Translations under genes and position numbers: made by a program | In this document: positions 14,059 through 32,573 of the stretch, in pieces | Position numbering within the stretch: the stretch's first letter is position 1 | Layout: every line of letters begins with the position of its first letter | Notes under the pieces: model-generated | Seen by the model: only the letters and a program-made list of their open reading frames with translations | Database searches by the model: none | Told to the model about the DNA's origin: nothing | NCBI RefSeq assembly: GCF_010725485.1 | Contig: NZ_AP022598.1 | Coordinates: forward strand, 3,844,001 to 3,908,000 | Direction: 5' to 3' | Length of the DNA stretch: 64,000 nucleotides | From: Mycolicibacterium parafortuitum | Lineage (GTDB): Bacteria; Actinomycetota; Actinomycetes; Mycobacteriales; Mycobacteriaceae

Positions 14059-14643
14059 ATGGCCCGCGCAATCCACGTCTTCCGCACACCCGACCGCTTC
14101 GTGGCCGGGACCGTCGGCCAGCCGGGAAACCGGACCTTCTATCTGCAGGCCGTGCACGACAAGCGCGTCATCTCGGTCATTCTGGAAAAGCAGCAGGTGG
14201 CGGTGCTCGCCGAGCGGATCGCCGCACTGTTGCTCGAGATCAACCGCCGCTTCGGCACCCCGATCCCGCCCGAGACCAACGACGTCGAGGACCTCAGCCC
14301 GCTGGTCACCCCCGTCGACGCCGAATTCCGCGTCGGCACCATGGGCCTGGGCTGGGATTCTGAGGCCCAGACCGTCGTGGTGGAGCTGCTCGCGGTGTCC
14401 GAGACCGAGTTCGACGCCTCCGTCGTGCTCGACGACGCCGAGGACGGACCGGACGCGGTGCGGGTGTTCCTGACCCCCGAGTCGGCCCGCCAGTTCGCCG
14501 CCCGCTCCAACCGGGTCATCTCGGCGGGCCGGCCGCCGTGCCCGCTGTGCGAGGAGCCGCTGGACCCCGAAGGCCACATCTGCGTCCGGACCAACGGTTA
14601 CCGGCGCGGTGCCCTGAGCGGGTCCGACGATGACGAGCTCTGA
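14059..14643 (+). CDS. DUF3090 family protein
   Basis: A 194-residue actinobacterial protein of the DUF3090 family (Rv2134c-like). It begins ARAIHVFRTPDRFVAGTVG and ends with a probable zinc knuckle (CPLCEEPLDPEGHIC, Cys spacing 2 and 9). ATG at 14059 is used; a TTG at 14047 is also in frame. The last 14 bases overlap the kinase-like SCO1664 gene, and the two are adjacent in many actinobacteria, so they probably act together. Biochemical role unknown. Confidence 0.85.
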   Translation: MARAIHVFRTPDRFVAGTVGQPGNRTFYLQAVHDKRVISVILEKQQVAVLAERIAALLLEINRRFGTPIPPETNDVEDLSPLVTPVDAEFRVGTMGLGWDSEAQTVVVELLAVSETEFDASVVLDDAEDGPDAVRVFLTPESARQFAARSNRVISAGRPPCPLCEEPLDPEGHICVRTNGYRRGALSGSDDDEL

Positions 14644-15430
14644 GATCCTCCAGCGCGGTGAGCTGGTGGTGCTCGGCCGGATCCGGTCGGCGAGCAACGC
14701 GACATTCCTGTGTGAGGCGACCCTCGACGGCGCCACCGAGCACTGTGTCTACAAACCGGTGCGCGGGGAGGCGCCGCTGTGGGATTTCCCCGACGGCACA
14801 CTGGCGGGCCGCGAGCTGTCGTCGTATCTGATCTCCGCGGCGCTGGGCTGGAATGTGGTGCCCTACACCATCATCCGGGACGGGCCGGCCGGGCCGGGGA
14901 TGCTGCAGCGCTGGATCGACCAACCGGACGACGACGCGACGGAAGCCGCTGCCGGACCCGATCTGATCGACCTCGTCCCGGCGGGCAAGGTGCCGCCGGG
15001 GTTCCTGCCGATCCTGCAGGCCTACGACTATGCCGGCGACGAGGTGACCCTGGTGCACGCCGACGATGAGCGGCTGCGCCGAATCGCGGTGTTCGACGTG
15101 CTGATCAACAACGCCGACCGCAAGGGCGGACACGTCCTGCAGGGCATCGACGGCGGCGTCTACGGCGTCGACCACGGGGTCACGCTGCACGAAGAGGACA
15201 AGCTGCGCACCGTGCTGTGGGGTTGGGCGGGCAAACCCGTCGATGACGAAACCCTGACCGATGTCGAGAAACTCGGCGAGGCGCTGAAGTCCGATCTGGG
15301 CACCGAGCTGCGCGACCACATCACGCCGCGAGAAGTCGCCGCGTTACGGTCCAGAATCGTTGGCCTGCTGCGCAATCCGGTGATGCCGACACCTGACCGT
15401 CGGCGGCCGATCCCATGGCCCGCGTTCTGA
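14630..15430 (+). CDS. SCO1664 family kinase-like protein
   Basis: A 266-residue protein with a PI3K/PI4K-like or HipA-like kinase outline. [16 protein letters not shown] would hold the nucleotide-binding Lys, [17 protein letters not shown] the catalytic loop (Asn-Asp) and [17 protein letters not shown] the metal-binding Asp. This matches the SCO1664/Rv2133c family. It overlaps DUF3090 by 14 bases. Substrate unknown; an inositol- or protein-phosphorylating role is a hypothesis drawn from the fold only. Confidence 0.82.
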
Positions 15431-15447
15431 CGTGATGTACTGGCGCG

Positions 15448-16205
15448 GTGACTCTCACCGACGCAGCACTGGCCGCCACGGTGGCCGAGGAGGCCGGTGG
15501 GCTGCTGCTCGCGATGCGCGAGCAGATCGGTTTTACGATCCCTACGATCTCGGCGACGCCGGTGACGCGCGCGCGAACACGCTGATCCTGGACCGGCTGC
15601 GTCGCGCACGCCCGCACGACGCGATCCTGTCCGAGGAGGCCGTCGACGACGTGTCCCGGGTCGACGCCGACCGGGTCTGGATCGTCGACCCCGTCGACGG
15701 CACCCACGAGTACTCGATGCCGGGCCGCGCCGACTGGGCGGTGCACATCGCGCTGTGGCGGCGGGATGCGGGCACGATCACCGACGCCGCGGTCGCCCTG
15801 CCGGCCCGCGGCGAGGTGTACCGCAGCGACACCGTCGTGCCCCCGCCTCCGCGTGCCGACGGACCGATCCGGATCACCGCCAGTTCCAATCGTCCGCCCG
15901 CCGTGCTGTGGCGGATCCGCGAACAGCTCGACATCGAGCTCTACCGGATCGGGTCGGCAGGGGCGAAGGCCATGGCCGTGGTCCGTGGCGACGTGGACGC
16001 GTACCTGCACGCCGGCGGGCAGTGGGAGTGGGATTCCGCGGCACCGGCCGGTGTGCTGTGGGCGGCGGGCCTGCACGCGACCCGCCTCGACGGCTCCCCG
16101 CTGATCTACAACCGCCGCGACCCGTACCTGCCGGACCTGCTGATGTGCCGACCCGAGGTCGCCGGGGATCTACTGGAGACGATCTGGTCGGCCTACCGGG
16201 AATGA
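15448..16205 (+). CDS. cysQ: 3'-phosphoadenosine 5'-phosphate phosphatase CysQ (one frame break)
   Basis: An inositol-monophosphatase-fold enzyme that hydrolyses PAP/PAPS in sulfate assimilation (Rv2131c). Metal-binding motifs are visible: [28 protein letters not shown] and [16 protein letters not shown]. The N-terminus reads from GTG at 15448 up to MREQIGF near 15530. The conserved continuation ([17 protein letters not shown]) is in another frame, so one base is missing around GG-TTTT at 15528-15534. The rest is intact to 16205. About 252 residues if restored, normal for the family. Next to mshC, also thiol-sulfur metabolism. Confidence 0.85.
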
Positions 16206-16252
16206 ATCGGCCGTCGGAGTTGTCGCACACCACGATGTCTAAAGTCGACGCC

Positions 16253-17489
16253 ATGAAATCGTGGTCCGCGCCTGACGTTCCGGTGCTTCCGGGGCGCGGG
16301 CCCCAGCTGCGCCTCTACGACAGCGCCGACCGCCAGGTGCGGCCGGTGGCGGCGGGCACGACCGCCACGATGTACGTGTGCGGGATCACCCCGTACGACG
16401 CGACCCACCTCGGCCACGCCGCGACCTATCTGACCTTCGATCTGGTCAACCGGGTGTGGCGCGACGCCGGCCACGACGTGCACTACGTGCAGAACATCAC
16501 CGACGTCGACGATCCGCTGTTCGAACGCGCACAACGCGACGGCATCGGCTGGCGCGAGCTCGGCGACCGCGAGACCGAGCTGTTCCGCGAGGACATGGCC
16601 GCGCTGCGGGTGCTGCCCCCGCGCGACTACGTGGCCGCCACCGAGGCCATCGCCGAGGTGGTCGAGGTGGTGGAGAAGCTACTGGCCTCCGGGGCCGCCT
16701 ACGTCGTCGACGACGCCGAGTATCCCGACGTGTACTTCCATGCCGGCGCCACCGCCCAGTTCGGCTACGAGTCCGGCTTCGACCGCGACACCATGCTGGC
16801 GCTGTTCGCCGAACGCGGCGGCGACCCCGAGCGGGCGGGCAAACGGGATCCGCTGGATGCGCTGCTGTGGCGCGTCGAACGCCCCGGCGAGCCGAGCTGG
16901 CCGTCGCCGTTCGGCCCGGGCGGCCGGGCTGGCACGTGGAGTGCGCGGCGATCGCGATGACCCGCATCGGCAACGTGCTCGACATCCAGGGCGGCGGCAG
17001 CGACCTGGTGTTCCCGCACCACGAGTTCTCCGCCGCCCACGCCGAGTGCGTCTCGGGGAGCGGCGCTTCGCCCGGCACTATGTCCACGCGGGCATGATCG
17101 GCTGGGACGGGCACAAGATGTCCAAGAGTCGCGGCAACCTGGTGCTGGTCTCCCAGCTGCGGCGCGACGGTGTCGACCCGGCCGCGATCCGCCTCGGGCT
17201 CTTCGCCGGGCACTACCGTCAGGACCGGTACTGGAGCCCCGAGGTGGTCGACGAGGCGCTGCAGCGGCTGCACCGGTGGCGCAGCGCGACCTCCCTGGGC
17301 GCCGCGCCGGACGCCACCGACGTCGTCGCCCGCGTCCGCCGCTACCTCGCCGACGATCTCGACACCCCCAAAGCGCTTGCCGCACTGGATGGTTGGGCCA
17401 CCGACGCACTGTCCTACGGGGGTCACGACCCCGCCGCCGGGACGACGGTGGCCACCGCGGTCGACGCGCTGCTGGGCGTTCAGCTGTAA
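16253..17489 (+). CDS. mshC: Mycothiol ligase MshC (two frame breaks)
   Basis: Joins cysteine to GlcN-inositol with ATP in mycothiol synthesis; a cysteinyl-tRNA synthetase-like enzyme of about 412 residues. [17 protein letters not shown] holds the zinc Cys and HIGH-like motif, [16 protein letters not shown] follows, then [29 protein letters not shown] and the KMSKS loop ([13 protein letters not shown]). The frame breaks near 16921 (one C lost in a GGGC-CGG context) and near 17055-17058 (GGGG instead of five G), each by one base. All active-site residues are kept once frames are joined. mshC is required for mycothiol, so real loss would be costly. Confidence 0.9.
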
Positions 17490-17517
17490 AGCTGCTCCCG
17501 TGGAGTAGGTTTCGGCT

Positions 17518-18404
17518 GTGTCTACAGCGCGGTCGATCGCCGGGAGAACCGTCTTCATCACCGGAGGCGCCCGCGGCGTCGGTGCCGAGGTGGCACGCCG
17601 TCTGCACGCCAGGGGAGCCAACCTCGTCCTCACCGACCTCGACGCGGCGCCGCTGGCCGAACTGCGGGACCGGCTGGGCGCGCAGCGCGTGCACACCGCG
17701 GTCGCCGACGTGCGGGAGCTGACCGACATGCAGGCCGCCGCGGACGCGGCCGCCGAACGATTCGGCGGTATCGACGTGGTGATGGCCAACGCCGGGATCG
17801 CGTCCTACGGTTCGGTGCTGCAGGTCGATCCGCAGGCGTTCCGCACGTTGATGGACGTCAACGTGCTCGGCGTATTCCACACCGTGCGCGCCACCCTGCC
17901 GTCGGTGCTGCAGCGGCGCGGGTACGTGCTGGTGGTGTCGTCGCTGGCCGCATACGCGGCATCGCCCGGGCTGGCGCCGTACCACGCGTCCAAGGCCGCC
18001 GTGGAGCACTTCGCCAACGCGCTGCGGCTGGAGGTCGGTTACCGCGGGTGGACGTCGGCACGGCGCACATGTCCTGGATCGACACCCCGCTGGTCCGCGA
18101 CGCCCGGGCTGACCTGCCGACGTTCACCGAGATGGTCAGCAAGCTGCCGTTCCCGCTGAATCGGACCACGTCGGTCGAGGCCTGCGGCAAGGCGTTCGTC
18201 GCAGGCATCGAGCGGCGCAAACGGCGCATCAACTGCCCGCGATGGGTCGGGGCGATGCGGTGGCTCAAACCGCTGCTGTCGACACCGCTGGGCGAGACGC
18301 CGGTCGTCAAGCTGGTGCCCGAGTTGTTGCCGAGGATGGACGCCGAGGTGGCCGCCCTCGGCCGGTCGATGGGTACCCGCACCGCGGATCTGGAGGAACG
18401 GTGA
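17518..18404 (+). CDS. Short-chain dehydrogenase/reductase (one frame break)
   Basis: A classical SDR of about 295 residues, counterpart of Rv2129c from memory. The cofactor loop is [15 protein letters not shown], the NAG motif is [12 protein letters not shown], and the catalytic YxxxK is [11 protein letters not shown]. One G appears lost near 18046-18048: the first frame ends in nonsense after GYRG, while [15 protein letters not shown] continues in the next frame to 18404. GTG start at 17518 follows GGAG. The stop overlaps the next start as TGATG. Substrate unknown. Confidence 0.83.
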
Positions 18405-19855
18405 TGCGGACAGTGCGTCGTCTGACGGCCGTGTTGGCGGCGCTGATACTGCTCGCAGGCTGCGGCACGGACTCGGGGTCGCAGCAGGCCGACACGTCGA
18501 CCTCGCCGGCCCCGCCGCCCGTCGCCGCGGAGGTGACCCCCGAACAAGCCCGGGCGATCGCGAAAGAGGCCTACATCTACGGTTTTCCGCTCGTCGACAA
18601 CTACCGCGTGCAGTACAGCTACTTCGTCGACAAGCAGGACCCCGAGTACAAGGGCGGCTGGAACGCGATCCACAACACCGCGCGGGTCTACACGCCCGCC
18701 GACAAGGCCATCCAGACGCCGAACTCGGACACCCCGTACTCGTTCGTCGGGGCCGACCTGCGCGCCGAACCGCTGGTCCTGACCGTCCCGCCGGTCGAGC
18801 AGGACCGCTATTACTCGCTGCAGTTCGTCGACGGGTACACCTACAACTTCGCTTACGTCGGCAGCCGCACCACCGGCAACGGCGGTGGCAGGTACCTGCT
18901 CGCGGGACCGAACTGGAAGGGCGAGAAACCCGAGGGCGTCGACGAGGTGATCCGGTCGGACACCGAGCTCGCATTCGTGTTGTACCGCACGCAGCTGTTC
19001 GGCCCGACCGACCTCGACGCGGTCAAGAAGATCCAGGACGGCTACCAGGTTGCGCCGCTGTCGGTGTTCCTGAACCAGCCGTCCCCGGAACCGGCGCCGG
19101 CGATCGACTTCGTCCCGCCGCTGACCGCCGACCAGCAGCGCACCTCGCCGCAGTTCTTCGAGACCCTGAACTTCGCGCTGCGGTTCGCGCCGGTACTGCC
19201 CGACGAGCGTGAGCTGCGGGACCGGTTCGCCACGATCGGCATCGGGGCCGACGGCGACTACGACGCCGATACGCTGACGCCGCAGATGCGCGCCGCGGTC
19301 GAGGGCGGAATCGCCGACGCGTGGGCGGAGTTCGATGCGCTCAAGAAGAACGAGGTCGACACCGGCAAGGTCACCTCGGCGCAGTTCTTCGGCACCCGGG
19401 ACGAGCTCAAGGACAACTACCTGTACCGGATGGCCGGCGCGGCGCTGGGCATCTATGGCAACACCGCGGCCGAGGCGATCTACCCCGCCGCGTTCAACGA
19501 CGCCGCCGGGGAGCCGCTGACCGGCGCGAACAACTACGTGTACCGGTTCGCGCCCGGTCAGCTGCCGCCGGTGAACGCGTTCTGGTCGGTGACCATGTAC
19601 GAGTTGCCCGCCAGCCTGCTCGTCGACAACCCGATCGACCGCTACCTGATCAACTCGGAGATGCTGCCGACCCTGGTGCCCGACGTCGACGGCGGCTACA
19701 CGCTGTACGTGCAGAACAGCTCACCGGGCCCGGAGAAGGAGCCGAACTGGCTGCCCGCGCCGAAGGGACCGTTCGGGTTGGTGCTGCGGCTGTACTGGCC
19801 CAAACCGGATGCGCTCAACGGGAGCTGGACGGCTCCGGTGCCCGAGAAGGTCTGA
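18404..19855 (+). CDS. DUF1254/DUF1214 domain lipoprotein
   Basis: A 483-residue exported protein with signal peptide and lipobox ending at Cys20 (ALILLAGC), a short low-complexity linker, an N-terminal DUF1254 domain (KEAYIYGFPLVDNYR, YSFVGADLRAEPLVL) and a C-terminal DUF1214 domain (VNAFWSVTMYELPASLLVDN, YLINSEMLP). The family is widespread and its biochemistry is largely unknown. The ATG is coupled to the SDR gene by TGATG. A strong inverted-repeat terminator follows. Confidence 0.88.
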   Translation: MRTVRRLTAVLAALILLAGCGTDSGSQQADTSTSPAPPPVAAEVTPEQARAIAKEAYIYGFPLVDNYRVQYSYFVDKQDPEYKGGWNAIHNTARVYTPADKAIQTPNSDTPYSFVGADLRAEPLVLTVPPVEQDRYYSLQFVDGYTYNFAYVGSRTTGNGGGRYLLAGPNWKGEKPEGVDEVIRSDTELAFVLYRTQLFGPTDLDAVKKIQDGYQVAPLSVFLNQPSPEPAPAIDFVPPLTADQQRTSPQFFETLNFALRFAPVLPDERELRDRFATIGIGADGDYDADTLTPQMRAAVEGGIADAWAEFDALKKNEVDTGKVTSAQFFGTRDELKDNYLYRMAGAALGIYGNTAAEAIYPAAFNDAAGEPLTGANNYVYRFAPGQLPPVNAFWSVTMYELPASLLVDNPIDRYLINSEMLPTLVPDVDGGYTLYVQNSSPGPEKEPNWLPAPKGPFGLVLRLYWPKPDALNGSWTAPVPEKV

Positions 19856-19867
19856 CCCCGGAGTTTT

Positions 19868-19931
19868 CCGCGAGCGTGCGGGAAGTCCGTCCTGAGCCCG
19901 GCGTGTCGGCCGCCGACACGCACGCTCGCGG
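19868..19931. terminator. Inverted-repeat element between convergent genes
   Basis: A perfect 13-base inverted repeat, CCGCGAGCGTGCG (19868-19880) with CGCACGCTCGCGG (19919-19931), encloses an inner stem CGTGTCGG (19902-19909)/CCGACACG (19913-19920). TTTT precedes it on the plus strand. It lies between the convergent DUF1254 and PAC2 genes and shares CGCGAGCGTGCG with 6184-6195, so it is probably a copy of a mycobacterial intergenic repeat working as a bidirectional terminator. Confidence 0.7.
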
Positions 19932-19937
19932 TCGGGG

Positions 19938-20812
19938 CTAGCGGCCGCGGCGGCGCAGGTAGCGTTCGAACTCCGCGGCCAGCGCGTCACCGTCGATCTT
20001 GCCCAGTGCCTCGTTCAGGTCGACCTCGGCGTCGCCGCGTTCCTCCAGCGAGTGCACGTAGTCGGCGATCTCGTCGTCCTCCGAGGTCATCTCGGTGACG
20101 GCCTGCTCCCACTCCTCGGCCTGCGACGGCAGGTCGGCCAGCGGGACCTCGATGTCCAGGACGTCCTCCACCCGGCGCAGCAGCGCCACGGTGGCCTTCG
20201 GGTTCGGGGTTGCGACACGTAGTGCGGGACGGCGGCCCAGAACGTCACCGCCGGGATACCGGCCTGCACGCAGGCGTCCTGGAACACCCCGGCGATCCCG
20301 GTCGGGCCCTCATAGCGGGTCTCTTCGAGTCCGAACGTCTTCGCCGACTCGGCCGAATACGCCGCGCCGGACACTGGCACCGGCCGGGTGTGCGGGGTGT
20401 CGGCCAGCAACGCGCCCAGGATCACCACCGTCTGCACATTCAGCTTGTCGGCGATGGTCAGCAGTTCGGCGCAGAACGTCCGCCACCGCATGTTCGGCTC
20501 GACGCCGTGCATCAACACGATGTCGCGGTCGGCACCCGGCGGGCGGCAGTGCGAGATCCGCATCGACGGCCACACCAGCTCGCGGGTGACCCCGTCGATC
20601 TGGCGGATCACCGGCCGGTTCACCTGGTAGTCGTAGTAGGACTCGTCGTCGATCTCGACGATCGTCTCCGCCTCCCAGATCGCGTCCAGGTGCTCCAGCG
20701 CGTCGCTGGCAGCGTCGCCGGCGTCATTCCAGCCCTCGAACGCCGCGACGACGATCGTGTCGTGCAGGTCTGGCAGGTCGCGCTTCGGACCGCCGAAATC
20801 CGAGGGTGTCAC
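19938..20812 (-). CDS. PAC2 family protein (one frame break)
   Basis: A PAC2 (proteasome assembly chaperone 2-like) protein of about 291 residues, counterpart of Rv2125. Visible family segments are AAFEGWNDAGDAASDALEHL, the MHGVEPNMRW region and VVILGALLADTPHTRPV. The frame breaks near 20206-20209, where GGGG on the plus strand replaces an expected five; the C-terminal part (VALLRRVEDVLDIEVPL) continues in another frame to TAG at 19938. Function in bacteria is unclear. Divergent from metH. Confidence 0.83.
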
Positions 20813-20961
20813 GCTCCCAGCCTAAGCCTTGGACCGGCTCGATGATGGGCATCGACCCGCCCCCGAAGGTGAAATACGCACGACAGCAGCCTGGTTAACC
20901 TTGGGGAGTACGACTGCGCGGTAACAAGGCCAGGCGTCCAGCCGTCGGTGTGGTGACGACG

Positions 20962-20967
20962 TACACT
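20962..20967 (+). promoter_or_regulatory. Possible -10 box of the metH promoter
   Basis: TACACT lies 7 bases before the first paired base of the riboswitch at 20974, matching an actinobacterial sigma-A -10 box with transcription starting at the riboswitch. No convincing -35 box is seen about 17 bases upstream, so this is a tentative assignment. Confidence 0.4.
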
Positions 20968-20973
20968 CTCGGG

Positions 20974-21041
20974 GTCGAGAGGCGTTGCAACGGAGCCGGG
21001 TCTTCCCAGGTCCGCCACGCTCGGCAGAGTCAAGGACGCCT
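20974..21041 (+). ncRNA. Probable S-adenosylhomocysteine (SAH) riboswitch
   Basis: The leader of metH folds as the SAH riboswitch family requires. GTCGAG (20974-20979) pairs with CTCGGC (21020-21025) as the pseudoknot helix. AGGCGT (20980-20985) pairs with ACGCCT (21036-21041) as P1. Between them a hairpin CGGA.../...TCCG (20991-21014) forms P2. The core TTGCAAC, CCGCCACGCTCGG and TCAAGGACGCC resembles published SAH aptamers, with one difference (CCACG instead of CCAGG). SAH riboswitches are known upstream of ahcY, metF and metH and switch genes on when SAH accumulates, which fits metH. Confidence 0.68.
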
Positions 21042-21063
21042 TCCATGTTTCATGATGGAAGGG
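21041..21063 (+). promoter_or_regulatory. metH: Hairpin covering the metH ribosome-binding site
   Basis: TTCCAT (21041-21046) pairs perfectly with ATGGAA (21055-21060), hiding the GGAAGGG ribosome site (21057-21063) of metH. The left arm begins at the last base of riboswitch helix P1, so ligand binding could disfavour the hairpin and expose the ribosome site. This would be the expression platform of the SAH switch; the competition is inferred from base overlap only. Confidence 0.5.
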
Positions 21064-21069
21064 ATGCGT

Positions 21070-24784
<3,715 letters not shown>

Positions 24785-24961
24785 CCAGCCGAACAGGTGG
24801 CCGGTGACGCTGCTCACCCGCTCCGGTGGCGCGGGTTGCTGATCCGTGCGCGAAAGTCGTTCGCGCCCAGGCTGAACAGTTCGTCGAGGCCTCAGCCGCG
24901 GAGGTCTTCGATCGCACCGGCGCGGGCCGGCAACTCGGGCCGGCATGAGACAATCGCGGGT

Positions 24962-25645
24962 ATGCGAGCAGTGCTGTGGGATATGGACGGCACCCTCGTC
25001 GACTCCGAGAAGCTGTGGGATGTGTCACTTTCCGCGCTCTACCAGACGTACGGCGGCGTGATGAGCCGCGAGACCAGGACCGCGCTGGTCGGGGCGTCGG
25101 CGGAAGAGACGATGGTCACCGTGTACGCCGAACTCGGACTCGAGCCCGACCCGGCGGCGATGGCGGACTCCATCCGCTGGTTGCACAGCCACACCGCCGA
25201 ACTGTTCGACGGCGGTCTGCCCTGGTGCGACGGCGCCCGGGAGATGCTGGATTCCCTTTCCGCGGAACGTACTCCGATGGCATTGGTGACCAACACCAAC
25301 CGCGAGCTCGCCGACCGTGCGCTGGAAAGCATTGGGCGCCATTACTTCACGTTCACGGTGTGCGGTGACGAGGTGCCGCGCGGTAAACCCGCGCCGGACC
25401 CGTACCTGCGGGCCGCCGAACTGCTGGAACTCGATCCGGCCGAGTGTCTGGCCGTCGAGGATTCGGTGACGGGCGCCGCGGCGGCCGAGAAGGCCGGTTG
25501 TGCCGTGCTCGTGGTCCCCAACGACGTCCCGGTGCCCGGCGGGCTGCGCCGGCGCCACGCGAACTCGCTCGCCGATCTGGATCCCGCCGAGCTGCGCCGG
25601 ATCCACGCGGAGATCGAGCGCGAGCTGCGGGAACGGACCGCCTGA
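24962..25645 (+). CDS. HAD-superfamily phosphatase
   Basis: A 227-residue HAD hydrolase with nucleophile motif WDMDGTLVDSEKLW, motif II LVTNTNRE, motif III Lys/acid segment GDEVPRGKPAPDPYLRA and ECLAVEDSVTGAAAAEKAG. The alpha-helical cap between the first two motifs is of the beta-phosphoglucomutase-like type. Acts on a small phosphate ester, identity unknown. ATG at 24962 is used; the 177 bases after metH hold no other gene or clear terminator that I can see. Confidence 0.88.
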   Translation: MRAVLWDMDGTLVDSEKLWDVSLSALYQTYGGVMSRETRTALVGASAEETMVTVYAELGLEPDPAAMADSIRWLHSHTAELFDGGLPWCDGAREMLDSLSAERTPMALVTNTNRELADRALESIGRHYFTFTVCGDEVPRGKPAPDPYLRAAELLELDPAECLAVEDSVTGAAAAEKAGCAVLVVPNDVPVPGGLRRRHANSLADLDPAELRRIHAEIERELRERTA

Positions 25646-25726
25646 TCACCTTCCGGTGACGGTTCGGCGCGTAATCGGCCGATCTTTGGGGAACACCCTC
25701 CGACGACAAAGTTTCCAGTGCTTGAA

Positions 25727-25742
25727 TGTGATCTGCATCACG
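25727..25742 (+). promoter_or_regulatory. CRP-like binding site upstream of the sugar transporter
   Basis: TGTGATCTGCATCACG matches the CRP consensus TGTGA-N6-TCACA with one mismatch. It lies 24 bases before the transporter start, downstream of or overlapping a likely promoter. Mycobacterial CRP homologues use this motif, so cAMP-dependent control of sugar uptake is likely; the location close to the start would fit repression. Confidence 0.6.
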
Positions 25743-25765
25743 CACCGTTGCGGAAAGGTCGTCGC

Positions 25766-27246
25766 ATGGCCGGTCAGGGTGGTCCCGTCGGGGAGGGGCC
25801 CGACATCTACGACATCAACGACAGCGACCAGGGCTCATCCTCGGGGAAGACGGCCGTGCGCATCGCGTCGGTGGCGGCCCTCGGTGGCCTGCTGTTCGGC
25901 TACGACAGCGCGGTGATCAACGGTGCCGTCGACTCCATTCAGGAGGACTTCGGCATCGGCAACGCCGAACTCGGATTCGCGGTGGCATCGGCGCTGCTCG
26001 GCGCCGCCGCAGGGGCGATGGCCGCCGGGCGCATCGCCGACCGCATCGGTCGCATCGCGGTGATGAAGATCGCCGCGGTGCTGTTCCTGGTCAGTGCGTT
26101 CGGCACCGGCCTGGCGCACGAGGTGTGGGCGGTGGTGCTCTTCCGGATCGTCGGCGGCATCGGTGTCGGGGTCGCGTCGGTGATCGCGCCCGCCTACATC
26201 GCCGAGACCTCACCCCGGGCATCCGAGGCAGGCTCGGATCGCTGCAGCAGCTCGCGATCGTGTCCGGCATCTTCTTGTCCTTCGCGGTCAACTACCTGTT
26301 GCAGTGGCTCGCCGGCGGGCCCAACGAACCGCTGTGGCTCAACCAGGACGCGTGGCGGTGGATGTTCATCGCGATGGCGGTGCCCGCGGTCCTCTACGGC
26401 GCGCTCACGTTCACGATCCCCGAGTCGCCGCGCTATCTCGTTGCCACGCACAAGATCCCGGAAGCCCGCAAGGTGCTGACCAGGCTGCTCGGGCAGAAGA
26501 ACCTGGAGATCACGATCAGCCGCATCCGGCAGACGCTGGAACGCGAGGACCGGCCGTCGTGGCGGGATCTGCGCAAGCCGACGGGCGGGATCTACGGAAT
26601 CGTCTGGGTGGGCCTTGGTCTGTCGATCTTCCAGCAGTTCGTCGGCATCAACGTGATCTTCTACTACAGCAACGTGCTGTGGCAGGCCGTCGGCTTCAGC
26701 GCCGACGAGTCGGCGATCTACACCGTGATCACGTCGGTGATCAACGTGCTGACCACATTGATCGCGATCGCCCTGATCGACAAGATCGGCCGCAAGCCAC
26801 TGCTGCTCATCGGCTCCTCGGGCATGGCGGTCACGCTGATCACGATGGCGGTGATCTTCGGCAACGCCACGGTCAACGCTGACGGCACGCCGAGCCTGCC
26901 GGGTGCGTCCGGGGTGATCGCGCTGATCGCGGCGAACCTGTTCGTGGTCGCGTTCGGCATGTCCTGGGGTCCGGTGGTCTGGGTGCTGCTCGGTGAGATG
27001 TTCCCGAACCGGATCCGCGCCGCGGCGCTCGGGCTGGCGGCCGCGGGGCAGTGGGCGGCGAACTGGCTGATCACCGTCACCTTCCCCGGCCTGCGCGAAC
27101 ACCTCGGGCTGGCCTACGGCTTCTACGGTCTGTGCGCCGTGCTCTCGGGTCTGTTCGTGTGGCGGTGGGTGCTGGAGACCAAGGGCGTGTCCCTGGAGGA
27201 CATGCACGGCGAGATCCTGCAGCAGGACAAGACGGCCGCGGGCTGA
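25766..27246 (+). CDS. Sugar porter (MFS, SP family; one frame break)
   Basis: A twelve-helix proton/sugar symporter of about 493 residues. Sugar-porter signatures are present: GGLLFGYDSAVINGAV in helix 1, GRIADRIGRIAVM, PESPRYL in the central loop, FQQFVGINVIFYYSN in helix 7, and GPVVWVLLGEMFPNRIR before helix 11. The conserved ETSPPGIRGRLG is split near 26213-26216, where CCCC replaces five C; the two frames otherwise join cleanly. ATG 25766 follows GGAAAGG. A CRP-like site upstream suggests catabolite control. Glucose or another hexose is the likely substrate. Confidence 0.86.
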
Positions 27247-27294
27247 CGGGCCCAGCGTGCGCTTGCTGGGCGATGGCAATCCGGTTGCCCCGAC

Positions 27295-27576
27295 GTGACA
27301 GAATTGCCCAACGTGAAGACCTTCGATGCGCTGTTCGCCGAACTGAGCGAACGGGCGCGCACCCGCCCCGCCGGTAGCGGAACCGTGGCCGCCCTCGACG
27401 GCGGGGTGCACGGCATCGGCAAGAAGATCCTCGAGGAAGCCGGTGAGGTGTGGCTGGCCGCCGAGCACGAAGGTGACGACGCGCTGGCCGAGGAGATCAG
27501 CCAGCTGCTGTACTGGACCCAGGTGCTGATGCTCGCGCGCGGCCTGTCCCTCGATGACGTGTACGGAAAGCTGTAA
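27295..27576 (+). CDS. hisE: Phosphoribosyl-ATP diphosphatase
   Basis: A 93-residue MazG-fold enzyme hydrolysing phosphoribosyl-ATP to phosphoribosyl-AMP, the second step of histidine synthesis. [14 protein letters not shown] and the [15 protein letters not shown] helix carry the metal-binding Glu/Asp residues. GTG at 27295 fits the length of mycobacterial HisE. Only 2 bases separate it from hisG. Confidence 0.95.
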
Positions 27577-27578
27577 CC

Positions 27579-28424
27579 GTGCTCAGAGTCGCCGTCCCCA
27601 ACAAGGGGGCGCTCAGCGAATCGGCCTCGGAGATCCTGTCCGAGGCCGGGTACCGCCGCCGCTCCGATCCCAAGGATCTGACGGTGGTCGACCCGGCGAA
27701 CCAGGTCGAGTTCTTCTTCCTGCGTCCCAAGGACATCGCGATCTATGTCGGGTCCGGACAACTCGATCTCGGTATCACCGGACGGGACCTCGCGGCCGAC
27801 GCCGACGCGCCTGTGCGGGAGCGATTGGCGCTGGGTTTCGGGTCGTCCACGTTCCGCTACGCCGCCCCGGCGGGCCAGGACTGGCAGATCGCCGATCTGG
27901 CCGGCAAGCGGATCGCCACCGCGTATCCGAACCTGGTCCGAAAAGACCTGGCCGCCAAGGGGATCGATGCCACCGTCATCCGCCTCGACGGCGCGGTGGA
28001 GATCTCCATCCAACTCGGCGTGGCCGATGTGATCGCCGACATCGTCGGCTCCGGACGCACGCTGGGGCTGCACAACCTGGTGGCGTTCGGCGAATCGCTC
28101 TGTGATTCCGAGGCGATCCTGATCGAGCGGGCCGATTCCGATCCGGATCCCGCGCGCGACCAGCTCGCCGCCCGGGTTCAGGGTGTGGTGTTCGGCCAGC
28201 AGTACCTGATGCTCGACTACGACTGCCCGCGCGCGGTGTTGGACAAGGCCACCGAGGTGACCCCGGGCCTGGAGTCGCCGACCATCGCGCCGCTGGCCGA
28301 TCCGGCGTGGGTCGCGGTCCGCGCGCTGGTGCCGCGTCGGGACGTCAACGCGATCATGGACGAGCTCGCCGTCATCGGCGCGAAAGCGATTCTGGCCTCC
28401 GACATCAGGTTCTGCCGGTTCTGA
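27579..28424 (+). CDS. hisG: ATP phosphoribosyltransferase (long form)
   Basis: A 281-residue first enzyme of histidine synthesis, joining ATP and PRPP. It is the long, histidine-feedback-regulated form: catalytic domains ([27 protein letters not shown] loop [15 protein letters not shown]) followed by a C-terminal ACT-like regulatory domain ([21 protein letters not shown]). GTG at 27579 follows hisE by 2 bases, so both are in one operon. The convergent dehydrogenase ends 21 bases downstream. Confidence 0.95.
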
Positions 28425-28445
28425 TCCAGCTCGCAAACCGGTCCG

Positions 28446-29347
28446 CTACGAGGATCGGCCCCTGTCCGCGGCGATGAGATCGACGATCGTCGAGTCGTCC
28501 ATCGAGGCCATCCCCTGACGTACGCCGAGCAGGTAGATCTGCTCGGCTGCTGCGGCCAGGGTGGGCAGATTCGCCGCGCGCGACGTCTGCCCGACGATGC
28601 CCATGTCTTTGGCGAAGATGTCGACCCTGCTGTGGACCGCGTCCGAGTCATAGTCGGCCAGCATTCGCGCGCCGCGGTCGCGAAGCATGAACGACGAGGC
28701 GGCGCCGGCGTCCAGCGTCTCCCATGTCGCGCGGTCGTCGAGACCGAGGGCCCGGGCCAGTGCGATCGCCTCGGCCGCCGCGGCGATGTGGATGCCGCAG
28801 AGCAACTGGTTGACCGTCTTGAACGCCTGTCCGTCGCCGGGGCGGGGCCGATGATGCGCAGTGTCGACGCAAGGTGGTCGAGGCACTGCGCGACCAGGCC
28901 GGTGGGTTCACCGCCGACGGTGACGAGCAGATCCCCGCTACGCGCCCGGACGGGGCCACCGCTGACCGGCGCGTCGACGAGCAGCAGGCCACGCGGTGCC
29001 AGGCGCGCGGCGACATCACGCACGGCTTCCAGTCCGATCGTGCTCATCAGCAGGATGACCGAGCCGGTGGGCAGGTCGTCGGCGATACCGGCACTGCCGA
29101 ACAGGACCTCCTCCAACTGCGGGCCACTGCGAACGACCAGCACCACGACAGCGGCCGCCGCGCTTGCCGCCGCAGCGCTGTCGAAGGTCCGGATCCCTTC
29201 CTCGGCGGCAAGCTGCCGTCGCTCGGCGGCGACGTCGTAGCCGTGCACAGTCCACTGCTCGCCGAGTCGTAGGGCGATGGGCAGGCCCATCGCGCCCAGG
29301 CCGATCACCGCGATCCGGTCGGCCACGGCCGAACTGTCGGTACTCAT
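28446..29347 (-). CDS. 3-hydroxyacid dehydrogenase, LtnD/HIBADH-like (one frame break)
   Basis: A beta-hydroxyacid dehydrogenase of about 300 residues. It has the NAD(P) loop IAVIGLGAMGLPIALRL, the substrate motif VDAPVSGGPVRARSG and the catalytic-Lys motif GQAFKTVNQLLCG. One base is missing near 28837-28838 (plus strand CCGGGG), splitting the two halves. Paired with a four-carbon acid sugar kinase, the closest known context is threonate/erythronate catabolism, where such an enzyme makes the 2-keto acid that the kinase then phosphorylates. ATGA overlap with the kinase gene. Confidence 0.82.
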
Positions 29348-30651
29348 CGTGGTTCTCCCGAAGTCATGTGTGAGAGACGTTCGTAGACGTCATCGAGGGC
29401 CGTCGAGTCGCCGACATTCCCGGGGAACACGACGTACGGTGTCCCCGCCAGCGGGCCGGTCTCGATACGCCACAGCGCGACTATGCCGGGCAGCACCGGC
29501 CCCAGAATCGTTGCGCGAGTGACGCCGAGACCGTGCTTGGCGACATCGCTGGAGGTGATACCGCCCTTGGCGATGACGAACCGCGGCCGTAGGCCGTCGA
29601 GGGACTGCCGGACGGTGGCCGACACCGCATCCGATACCAGGCGTGCGAGCCGCAGACTGTCCTCCGGCGAAGCTTCGCGGCGCAGCGTCCGGGTGGTCTG
29701 CAGGATGGCGTCGCCCGCGACCAGAGCCGACCGCAGTTCCGCCGTCGCCGCGGCGACCTCGGCGGACCCCGAGGCGACCGCGTCGACGTCGAGCTCGATC
29801 ACCGGTAGCTCCGGTCGGCGCTCACGCAGGGTGGCGAGCTGCCGCGCGGTCACATCGACGTGGGAACCTACGACGATCAGTCCGCCGGCGGTGGCGTCCG
29901 CGACGCCGATCCCCAGCGCGCTGACGTCGACCGGGGCCGGTGACGGCCGGCCGAGCATCGCCCGCACGAAAGGCGGTCCCACCCGGTAGACGAAGCGTCT
30001 GCCGTTCGCCTGCGCCGCGCGTAGCAGGGATGCCGCTCGGGTGAGATCGTCGTCGGTTTCGGCGTCGACGACGATCACCGGCACCTGGTATCGCGATGAC
30101 CTCAACTCGTCGAGGGTCGTGTCGCGGTGCAGCACCGCGACATCGGCCGTCGAGTAGCGGCCGCCGGTCTTCTCGACCACCCATTCCCGCAGATCCGAAC
30201 TGCGGTATCCGAAGGTGGCATCGGAGGCGAACTCCGACATCGCCACGGGCACACGGCGGCCCCCGTCGAGCAGGTAATGCACACCGTCCACGGTGATCCG
30301 GCCTGCCTGCGGAAAGGCGGGCGCGAGCACCACCGTATCGACGGCGATACCCGCGGCGCGGCTCTGCGCGGCGAGAGCATCGGTCTCGGCCGGGAAGTGC
30401 CCGCGCAGGGTGGAATCGCTGCGGCTGACCAGGATCGCGTGGTGACCGAACGTCCTCAGTGCGGCCGCCGCTGCGTCGCTGGTGATGGCGAAAGCATCCT
30501 GCTCGCCCAGGCTTCGGCTGTTGGTCTGCAGGTAGACGGCCGGAGACTCCGCTGCCGCCCAGGCCAGGTCGTCTTCGGTCCAGCGGGTCAGGACCGGCAG
30601 ATCGCTGACCGACTGGGTGCCGGTGGGGTCGTCGTCGATGACGATCAGCAT
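29344..30651 (-). CDS. Four-carbon acid sugar kinase family protein (OtnK/DUF1537-like)
   Basis: An intact 435-residue kinase of the family once called DUF1537. The N-terminal sugar-binding domain starts LIVIDDDPTGTQSVSDLPV, contains YLQTNSRSLG and SRSDSTLRGHFPAE; the C-terminal nucleotide-binding domain has FVIAKGGITSSDVAKHGLGV and VVFPGNVGDSTALDDVY. It phosphorylates a 3- or 4-carbon sugar-acid derivative such as 3-oxo-tetronate. ATG 30651 follows GGAGAA. No aldolase or isomerase gene of the usual tetronate pathways is nearby, so the real substrate is open. Confidence 0.86.
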   Translation of the reverse strand: MLIVIDDDPTGTQSVSDLPVLTRWTEDDLAWAAAESPAVYLQTNSRSLGEQDAFAITSDAAAAALRTFGHHAILVSRSDSTLRGHFPAETDALAAQSRAAGIAVDTVVLAPAFPQAGRITVDGVHYLLDGGRRVPVAMSEFASDATFGYRSSDLREWVVEKTGGRYSTADVAVLHRDTTLDELRSSRYQVPVIVVDAETDDDLTRAASLLRAAQANGRRFVYRVGPPFVRAMLGRPSPAPVDVSALGIGVADATAGGLIVVGSHVDVTARQLATLRERRPELPVIELDVDAVASGSAEVAAATAELRSALVAGDAILQTTRTLRREASPEDSLRLARLVSDAVSATVRQSLDGLRPRFVIAKGGITSSDVAKHGLGVTRATILGPVLPGIVALWRIETGPLAGTPYVVFPGNVGDSTALDDVYERLSHMTSGEPR

Positions 30652-30674
30652 GATGAGTTCTCCGTGCGGGAAAG

Positions 30675-30709
30675 CGGTGGGGGTGGACCGGGGGAGTCCA
30701 CCCCCACCG
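30675..30709 (-). terminator. Perfect 14-base intercistronic stem
   Basis: CGGTGGGGGTGGAC (30675-30688) pairs exactly with GTCCACCCCCACCG (30696-30709) around a 7-base loop. It lies just past the stop of the substrate-binding protein gene (30713) and before the kinase start (30651) on the same transcript. It probably attenuates read-through or protects the upstream message, giving more binding protein than enzyme. Confidence 0.65.
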
Positions 30710-30712
30710 GCG

Positions 30713-31730
30713 TCACTTGGCGTACTCGGCGGCGGCCTTCTCGGCGAACGTGTTGTCCACGTTGGTCTCGAAGGACGTTGCCTCGCTTGGGTATTCCTTG
30801 ATGCTGCCGACGAACTCCGCGATCCGCATGTTGTTCTCCCATGCCTGTTCGGTGATCTCGACGTTCTCGGGTAGGCCCGGGCATCGAGCTCACGCCGCAC
30901 CGCGGTGGCGACCACTTCACCCTCGAGATCCGGGAAGTAGTTCTGCGCGACCGCGATCGCCTCGTCGGTGTTGGTGTAGATGAAGGTCGACGCCTGCTGG
31001 AAGGCGTTCACGACAGCCTGGGTGGCCTCCGGGTTCTCCGCCACATAGCGCTCGGTCGTCATCAGCGAGGAGAACGCGAAGGGTACCACCCCTCGATGTC
31101 GGAGAACGAGAACACCGCGTGCTTGCCCTGGGCCTCGACCTGGCTCACCTGTGGTTCGGTGGCGAGCGCGTAGTCGGCGCGGCCGCTGAGGAACGGCCCG
31201 AGCTCGTTGCCGACCGAGGCTTCGGTGATGGTGACCGCGTTCGGGTCCAGGGAGTTCTCGCGCATGAGGTAGTTGAAGAACGCCCATGTGCTGTCCGGTT
31301 CCGGCATCGTCACCACGGTGCTGCCCTCGAACCCGCGCACATCGTTCTGCAGCGAGGTGTCCTCGTTGCCGACCACCCACACCGCGGGCGCATTCTGGAT
31401 GGACGCGACAGCCAGTCCGGGCCCGTCGTTCTCATGGGAGATCGGCCCGAAGACCGGGTCGTGGATCGAGAAGTCATCGGTTCCCCCGAGCACAGAGGAC
31501 CAGGAATTCTGTCCGCCGCCACCGGTCGTCAGCGCGACATCGACGCCCTGCTCTTCGAAGAAGCCCTTGTCGATGGCGACGTACAACGGCAGGTACAGCA
31601 GCGACTGGAACGCCTGGTTGATGCGGACCTGGGAGCCTGCGTCGTCGCTTGACTGCGAGGAACACGAGGCGAGGGAGAGTGCCGTCACGGCGGCGAGTGC
31701 TGCGCCGAAAAGGCGGCGGGTGGTGGACAA
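30713..31730 (-). CDS. NMT1/THI5-like ABC transporter substrate-binding lipoprotein (two frame breaks)
   Basis: An exported solute-binding protein of about 339 residues. The signal peptide ends in a lipobox (ALSLASC, Cys23), then INQAFQSLLYLPLYVAIDKGFFEEQG is the start typical of nitrate/taurine/sulfonate/thiamine-precursor binding proteins. Start TTG at 31730 is inferred: it lies 4 bases after the permease stop and follows AAAGGA. Breaks near 31089-31092 (CCCC, one lost) and 30870 (one lost) separate ...DIEG, VVPFAFSSLMTTERYV and ENVEITEQAWENNMRIAEFV. Ligand unknown. Confidence 0.82.
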
Positions 31731-31734
31731 GAGA

Positions 31735-32573
31735 TCATTTCCTTTCGATGTGGTTGGCGCCGGGAAGAATTCGTTCGACAAATCGCATGGCGAGGCTGAG
31801 GACGCTCACCATCAAGACCACGACCACGAGTCCCGCGAAGACGGTCGACAGCGAGAAGGTTGCGCTGCCCCGCACGATCATGTGGCCGATACCGCTGCTG
31901 GACGAGATGAACTCCCCGACGATGGCGCCCACCACGGCGAATCCGACGTTGAGCCGCAGACCCTGCATGACCCACGGGCCGGCGCCGGGGACGATGATCT
32001 TGAAGAAGGTCTGAGTCTTGGTGGCCCGAAGGATCTCATCAGGTTGATCCAGTCCGCGTCGACCTCCTGTGCGCCGCGGTAGGAATTGGTCAGTGAGACG
32101 ACCACGCAGCTCAGCGCGACGATGACGATCTTCGACACGATGTCGGTGCCGAACCAGATGATGATCAGCGGCGCGATGGCCAGGATCGGGATGGCGCCTA
32201 TTGCGGTGATGAAGGGCCGTGTCAGCCCGGCGACGAAGCGTGAATACCACAGGGCCAGACCGAGAACCGATCCGCCGACGGCGCCCACGAGATACCCGAG
32301 CACCGTCTCGGTCATGGTGACACCGATGTCGGTCCAGAGCGCACCGGTTTCCGCACGTCGGGCCAGCACCTCGGCGATTCGGCTCGGCGAGGAGAACAAG
32401 AAGGTGTCGATGACGCCCGTGGCGGCGCCCAGCTCCCACGCCCCCAGCAGCCCCACGACGATCAGCACCTGCAAAGCCAGCACGAATCTGCTGCGCTCGG
32501 TGAGACGGGTCCGGCGAGGTTTGCGCGGCGGCGATGCGGACGGCGTCTGCTCGGTGTCTTTCATGACGGTCAT
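31735..32573 (-). CDS. ABC transporter permease, SsuC/TauC type (one frame break)
   Basis: An inner-membrane permease of about 280 residues with the binding-protein-dependent transport domain. Helix LQVLIVVGLLGAWELGAA, the conserved AIGAIPILAIAPLIIIWFG and the coupling (EAA-like) loop EVDADWINLMRSFGATKTQTFF are visible. The loop is interrupted near 32025-32027 by loss of one base. ATG 32573 overlaps the ATPase stop as ATGA. Works with the ATPase and binding protein on either side. Confidence 0.84.

Follow-up and report, generated by a model that had tools for sequence, protein, structure and literature searches.

A candidate SAH-class riboswitch in the metH leader of Mycolicibacterium parafortuitum and its relatives

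The gene for the cobalamin-dependent methionine synthase, metH, begins within a 64,000-nucleotide stretch of the Mycolicibacterium parafortuitum genome (assembly GCF_010725485.1, contig NZ_AP022598.1, positions 3,844,001 to 3,908,000 of the forward strand), referred to here as the window, and the locus raises the question of whether the short leader in front of this gene is an SAH riboswitch and, if so, how it would act on metH. The SAH riboswitch class, RF01057, was reportedly described by Wang in 2008 and by Edwards in 2010. An initial annotation, made from the letters of the window, had placed a member of this class before metH. The placement is supported by a full-length family match, the retained adenine contacts, a compensated pseudoknot and the occurrence of ahcY as a second target gene. 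The favored reading, held at a probability of about 0.84, is that an SAH-class riboswitch heads the metH mRNA and that its SAH-stabilized pseudoknot would free the Shine-Dalgarno site, acting as a translational ON switch.

The candidate aptamer occupies positions 20974-21041 of the forward strand and its 3' end lies 28 nt upstream of the metH start (Table 1). Read 5' to 3', the elements follow one another as TACACT, the 5' strand of P1, AGGCGT, TGCAA, P2, CCACG, the 3' strand of P1, the linker, ACGCCT, CCTTCCAT...ATGGAAGG and ATG. Both helices named in the initial annotation, GTCGAG/CTCGGC and AGGCGT/ACGCCT, pair as it had claimed, its internal hairpin was recovered as P2 on a CGGA/TCCG base, and the core similarity to which it had pointed is present as TTGCAAC at 20985-20991 and CCACGCTCGG at 21015-21024. 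The AGGCGT/ACGCCT helix crosses P1 and was therefore assigned as the pseudoknot helix of an SAH aptamer. When folded alone, the leader was no better than shuffled sequences (z -0.71), and P1 was absent from its minimum-energy fold computed without pseudoknots. The fold energy is thus unremarkable, and the evidence for the element is comparative.

Table 1 Features of the metH leader, in window coordinates
Feature	Position	Strand	Remarks
-10 promoter-like hexamer TACACT	20962-20967	+	Predicted transcription start near 20973-20975, at the base of P1
P1 5' strand GTCGAG	20974-20979	+	Partner 21020-21025
Pseudoknot 5' strand AGGCGT	20980-20985	+	Partner 21036-21041
Core TGCAA	20986-20990	+	TGC invariant in the 37-sequence alignment; adenine contacts G15 and C16
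P2 hairpin	20991-21014	+	Base CGGA 20991-20994 / TCCG 21011-21014; inward extension with bulges; variable top
Core CCACG	21015-21019	+	A29 kept; position 30 is C (G in Rfam)
P1 3' strand CTCGGC	21020-21025	+	Six pairs with GTCGAG, one of them T-G
Linker AGAGTCAAGG	21026-21035	+	Ten bases, ending in core CAAGG; position 46 is G (C in Rfam)
Pseudoknot 3' strand ACGCCT	21036-21041	+	Six Watson-Crick pairs; last three bases common to the sequestering hairpin
Sequestering hairpin CCTTCCAT/ATGGAAGG	21039-21062	+	Eight pairs; covers the Shine-Dalgarno site; in the minimum-energy fold
Shine-Dalgarno GGAAGGG	21057-21063	+	6 nt upstream of ATG 21070; read from the sequence
metH, cobalamin-dependent methionine synthase	21070-24784	+	Identified from translations; frame interrupted several times in the assembly

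The covariance model of RF01057 aligned end to end with positions 20971-21048 at 24.1 bits (E 0.087), below the gathering threshold of 37 bits, and was the only Rfam family with a match at E up to 1 in the region 20000-22000. Across the 6.04 Mb genome of the organism the metH leader was the best match to this model (E 0.06), followed by a runner-up at 21.8 bits. That second match (G000:C1:3935260) was without the CCA-GCTCG half of the core and was set aside, a judgement made from its letters only. The initial annotation had named a score below the family threshold as a result that would speak against it, and such a score was obtained, but it is outweighed by the recurrence of the element at metH, by covariation and by the gene context in relatives. 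The low score probably arises because a nested model cannot reward the exchanged pseudoknot pairs, and from the shorter linker. The cut-off was reached at none of six mycobacterial loci, at three of 12 other actinobacterial loci and in none of 37 genomes of the genus. Relatives of the same architecture score above it (L007, 42.6 bits; L099, 39.6; L104, 39.5; L127, 37.5), and the cut-off therefore splits a single homologous group.

Recurrence was searched with RF01057 at E up to 1 in 61 genomes, comprising 37 of the genus (including that of the window) and 24 others of the order. In 32 of the 37 genomes of the genus the model matched the metH leader, and in 31 of them this was the top-scoring site of the genome (the exception being G014). 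Among the five genus genomes with no match at the metH leader, three carry a metH whose first 127 residues show 48-50% identity, and no metH match was obtained from the other two, whose completeness is 70% and 84%. In the 24 genomes from other families of the order, a match just 5' of metH was found in four (G043, G049, G054 and G056), and the remaining 20 showed no such leader in front of metH. At E up to 0.001, a model built from the 32 genus leaders, the window among them (R1), matched 133 of the 148 genomes of the genus that were searched, a count in which those 32 match by construction; the position relative to metH was located in 32 genomes. The 15 genomes missed by R1 consist of 12 with a divergent metH (46-50% amino acid identity), one in which the metH match is 35 residues long and contains a stop, and two with no metH match. 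Over 296 genomes of the phylum R1 gave seven matches, fewer than the scan of named genomes described below would suggest; R1 is probably adapted to the long P2 found in the genus, so that this count is no measure of spread in the phylum. A further model, R2, was built from 32 non-mycobacterial copies, whose source pattern fixed the core letters, and it scored the window element at 53.2 bits (E 1.2e-9 in the 64 kb and 1.1e-7 in the genome), with the next best match at 21.0 bits.

Two alignments were used to assess covariation, and the counts from both are inflated by shared descent. The first held 37 sequences, 32 from the genus and five from elsewhere, one chance pattern match (L040) having been left out. 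In it 97.5% of the cells of the three helices were paired (P1, 99.1%; P2, 92.4%; pseudoknot, 100%), against 33.9-47.7% with slid strands, and its covariation score was reached by none of 500 shuffles. The number of pairs changed on both sides, three, was reached by 172 of 500 shuffles. These double changes fall on one pseudoknot pair and on the fourth and fifth pairs of P2, one of the double-changed P2 pairs is unpaired in 12 of the 37 sequences, and most pairs are invariant. The second alignment held 32 non-mycobacterial sequences chosen by the authors from at least 120 listed named copies, and here 99.4% of cells were paired (P1, 99.0%; P2, 100%; pseudoknot, 99.5%) against 23.2-45.8% with slid strands; both the covariation score and the number of double-changed pairs were reached by none of 500 shuffles, and the fourth pair of P2 again changes on both sides. 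Compared with the Rfam consensus pseudoknot (GAGCGC/GCGCUC), three of the six window pairs have both bases replaced, and all six are Watson-Crick.

Further copies were obtained by a pattern scan of named genomes, which returned at least 120 stretches. The core letters of the pattern were taken from the genus, so that the agreement of the core among these copies follows from the search itself, but their position before particular genes does not. The genera among the matches listed include Mycobacterium, Mycolicibacterium, Amycolatopsis, Actinoplanes, Micromonospora, Kribbella, Frankia, Streptosporangium and Nocardioides. Frames starting within 400 bases downstream, among the at least 120 matches listed, were metH in 84 cases, ahcY (adenosylhomocysteinase) in 24 and adenosine deaminase in two; of the other 10 listed, five had fewer than 400 bases left and five stood before other or unidentified genes. 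Among the matches listed, 28 of the 29 Mycobacterium and Mycolicibacterium copies precede metH, and the 29th stretch ends too early. Pfam searches on representatives returned AdoHcyase for both of two and A_deaminase for one, and for the remainder a methyltransferase, two MOSC proteins, an MFS protein and one frame without a family. The L007 copy precedes a frame that by eye resembles adenosylhomocysteinase. The aptamer stands before further genes (adenosine deaminase, methyltransferase, MOSC) in L097 and L123 (Micromonospora), in L145 (Nocardia carnea), in L201 (Saccharopolyspora) and in L209 (Saccharothrix). One contig titled as an Acidobacteria MAG (L172) carries the element together with a metH of mycobacterial type (83% amino acid identity), and is probably mis-binned.

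The bases of the window presumably equivalent to G15, C16, A29 and C46 are named here by the numbering of the known aptamer. In the SAH riboswitch the adenine of the ligand sits between C16 and A29 and is bonded by G15, and its tail lies near C46 (PMC7057144, section 15). The three adenine-contacting bases G15, C16 and A29 are all present in the window and are invariant in the 37-sequence alignment. The family feature C46, near the homocysteine tail, is replaced by G in the window, and position 30 carries C where the Rfam consensus has G, giving two core differences. The initial annotation had reported a single deviation, CCACG in place of CCAGG; that difference is real, but the second change, CAAC to CAAG at 21031-21034, had been missed. 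Position 30 is C in all 155 actinobacterial copies counted, most of which were fetched with a pattern that fixes this base, and no base other than C at this position was found in 394 genomes of the class. Judged from these sequences, CCACG appears to be the actinobacterial norm and not an oddity. Position 46 is G in 152 of the 155 copies, and in the other three the script found no pseudoknot strand from which to read it. The changes at 30 and 46 could together represent a swapped pair that keeps a G-C partnership. Proteobacterial counterparts were sought among plasmids with the Rfam consensus, which returned one record, from Burkholderia glumae, with ahcY downstream, a match over 60% of the query and no pseudoknot strand found. 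In two pattern scans of viral_contigs, which listed at least 120 stretches and 90 stretches, none of those listed passed the check for P1 and P2 pairing. With a single partial proteobacterial copy, the Rfam consensus is therefore the sole reference for the swap at 30 and 46.

With RF01057 the window element shares P1, P2, the pseudoknot, the UGCAA and CCA-GCUCG cores, the position before a gene of the SAH cycle and the predicted activation. It differs in its sub-threshold score, in three exchanged pseudoknot pairs and in the changes from G to C at position 30 and from C to G at position 46, and relative to the Rfam consensus the top of P2 is longer and the linker before the pseudoknot strand is shorter. 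Since the Rfam cut-off is not reached and base C46 is absent, the element is classed as an actinobacterial variant of the SAH riboswitch class and not as a plain member of RF01057. The SAM/SAH riboswitch (RF01727) and SAM-IV (RF00634) have ligands from the same cycle, and neither was among the Rfam matches at E up to 1 in 20000-22000. SAH riboswitches classically control SAH hydrolase (PMC7057144, section 15; PMC4239095). In Proteobacteria SAH regulons have a core of ahcY and metF, and metH is a taxon-specific target in Comamonadaceae (PMC4239095). The genes ahcY and metH are common to those regulons and to the copies found here, among which, in the at least 120 matches listed, metH is the commonest and ahcY the second. 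A report of 2013 (PMC3766115) records SAH riboswitches in Mycobacteriaceae, the same class in the same family of organisms, but its accessible part names neither the target gene nor the platform nor the sequence changes. The position before metH, which the initial annotation had called notable, is real but is not peculiar to this genome, and the class has been recorded in the family since that year. A genome-wide survey of 2019 by Pavlova and Penchovsky also includes SAH riboswitches in human pathogens, as cited in PMC9495176.

At the 5' side of the aptamer a TANNNT hexamer stands 5-7 nt before P1 in all 32 genus leaders (29 TAGACT, two TACACT and one TACAAT). In the five leaders from outside the genus it is 9-11 nt before P1 in four and absent in one. 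A sigma-70-type scan found no promoter. The recurrence of the hexamer at this distance within the genus makes it probable that the aptamer forms the 5' end of the message, at a start predicted from this motif.

At the 3' side, the predicted window hairpin has a free energy of -11.2 kcal/mol, which falls to -5.4 kcal/mol once the pseudoknot takes three of its bases, so that opening may be partial. Over the metH leaders the median shifts from -9.0 to -3.2 kcal/mol when the three shared bases go to the pseudoknot. The platform was surveyed in 155 distinct copies, two of which were too short. A pseudoknot strand was recognized in 149 of the remaining 153, with six pairs in 148 and five in one, using a search expression that favors such strands. 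The four copies with no recognized strand are all metH leaders and were left out, reducing 118 such leaders to 114 that were scored. Every one of these 114 has a stem with five or more pairs that starts in the pseudoknot strand and whose other side is Shine-Dalgarno-like, and in none is the stem followed by a T-run. All 24 ahcY leaders have the stem, with a Shine-Dalgarno-like side in 19 and a T-run in nine. Taken singly, the sequestering stems are unremarkable, the median number of shuffles that did as well being 20 of 200 for metH, 46 of 200 for ahcY and, for the window, four of 200. The two strands of the stem were CCTTCC/GGAAGG in 68 of 113 metH leaders, CCTCC/GGAGG in 42 and otherwise in three, and shuffling of strands among the metH leaders gave a mean of 58.5 and a maximum of 75 in 1000, although through shared descent these pairings represent fewer independent events than is apparent. 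Terminator-like hairpins with a T-run that overlap the pseudoknot strand were seen in L007 (1501-1591) and L154, both before ahcY, and in L102 (where the gene is cut off).

The elements with their conservation and covariation, their position, the overlap of pseudoknot and hairpin and the set of downstream genes are read from the sequences; SAH as the ligand, the ON direction and the translational level of control are inferred. These features are consistent with the following mechanism. When SAH is scarce, CCTTCCAT (21039-21046) would pair with ATGGAAGG (21055-21062), the Shine-Dalgarno site would be masked and metH would be poorly translated. A build-up of SAH would lead to its binding in the core and to stabilization of the AGGCGT/ACGCCT pseudoknot, which would capture the 5'-most three bases of the sequestering strand, weaken the hairpin and allow ribosomes to start at ATG 21070. 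The MetH so produced would consume the homocysteine released by SAH hydrolysis and regenerate methionine, and the block that SAH imposes on methyltransferases would be relieved.

The same aptamer and ligand could instead drive a transcriptional switch, through Rho access or an intrinsic terminator for example, with the Shine-Dalgarno hairpin a secondary matter. The T-run behind the same hairpin in nine of 24 actinobacterial ahcY leaders, and also in L007, implies that the aptamer can drive a terminator. At metH, however, no scored leader has such a run, each has a Shine-Dalgarno-like 3' side to its stem, and no terminator-like site was found in the window between 20880 and 21100, which makes control of transcription at this gene unlikely. 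It is less likely still that the ligand has shifted to another adenosine-containing metabolite (SAM, adenosine or methylthioadenosine), or that the aptamer fails to discriminate SAH from SAM. The two core positions that depart from the Rfam consensus, of which 46 is near the SAH tail in solved structures, would fit such a shift, as would the two adenosine deaminase genes among the at least 120 matches listed. Against these stand the retention of G15, C16 and A29 and the predominance of the SAH-cycle genes metH (84) and ahcY (24) among the same matches, and the changes at 30 and 46 may themselves be a swap that preserves the G-C partnership.

The interruptions of the metH frame in several places of the assembly would be expected if the gene were decaying and its switch idle in this genome. 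Pfam searches on the metH pieces returned S-methyl_trans, Pterin_bind, B12-binding, B12-binding_2 and Met_synt_B12, and relatives have an intact metH (an open frame of 1289 residues in G012 and of 1244-1268 in several named species). In a comparison over 18 kb with a close relative (window 14343-32268, 95.1% identical), single-base length differences are scattered and occur beyond metH as well, so that assembly error is likelier than gene decay, and no length difference from the same relative falls within the aptamer region; an idle switch is accordingly a very improbable account. Chance resemblance to an SAH aptamer might be suspected from the sub-threshold score and from weak RF01057 matches in a control set of 14 genomes, of which 10 gave one at E up to 10 and four at E up to 1. 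It was rejected on the recurrence at metH across the genus (32 of 37 genomes), together with conservation, covariation and gene context, and its probability is negligible. The preferred reading remains the SAH-responsive release of the Shine-Dalgarno site of metH.

A broader proposal is that the Actinomycetia possess an SAH-aptamer subclass of their own, marked by the swap from G30/C46 to C30/G46 and by exchanged pseudoknot pairs, with a selectivity that may differ from that of the proteobacterial aptamer and with two platforms, release of the Shine-Dalgarno site at metH and release from a terminator at some ahcY genes. This proposal is tentative and somewhat doubtful.

In mycobacteria metE is shut off by a cobalamin (B12) riboswitch, as described in the available text of PMC8088520 and PMC12713380, in which the terms SAH and adenosylhomocysteine do not occur. 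If the reading given here is true, metH would be under a riboswitch of its own, opposite in sign to that of metE and answering to the waste of methylation, and metE and metH would be set by two RNAs, the metE side being taken from the literature. Such an element is easily overlooked because all mycobacterial copies tested score below the Rfam cut-off. Part of the genus carries a divergent second type of metH, with 46-50% amino acid identity to the start of the window MetH. All 12 genomes in which this type was found (G010, G015, G029, G369, G372, G385, G386, G394, G402, G415, G424 and G456) are without an R1 match, and they form a natural comparison within the genus. Elsewhere in the genome of the window, a cobalamin riboswitch (L225, G000:C1:5000720-5000839, 83.2 bits) lies just upstream of a frame that by eye resembles a transporter substrate-binding protein.
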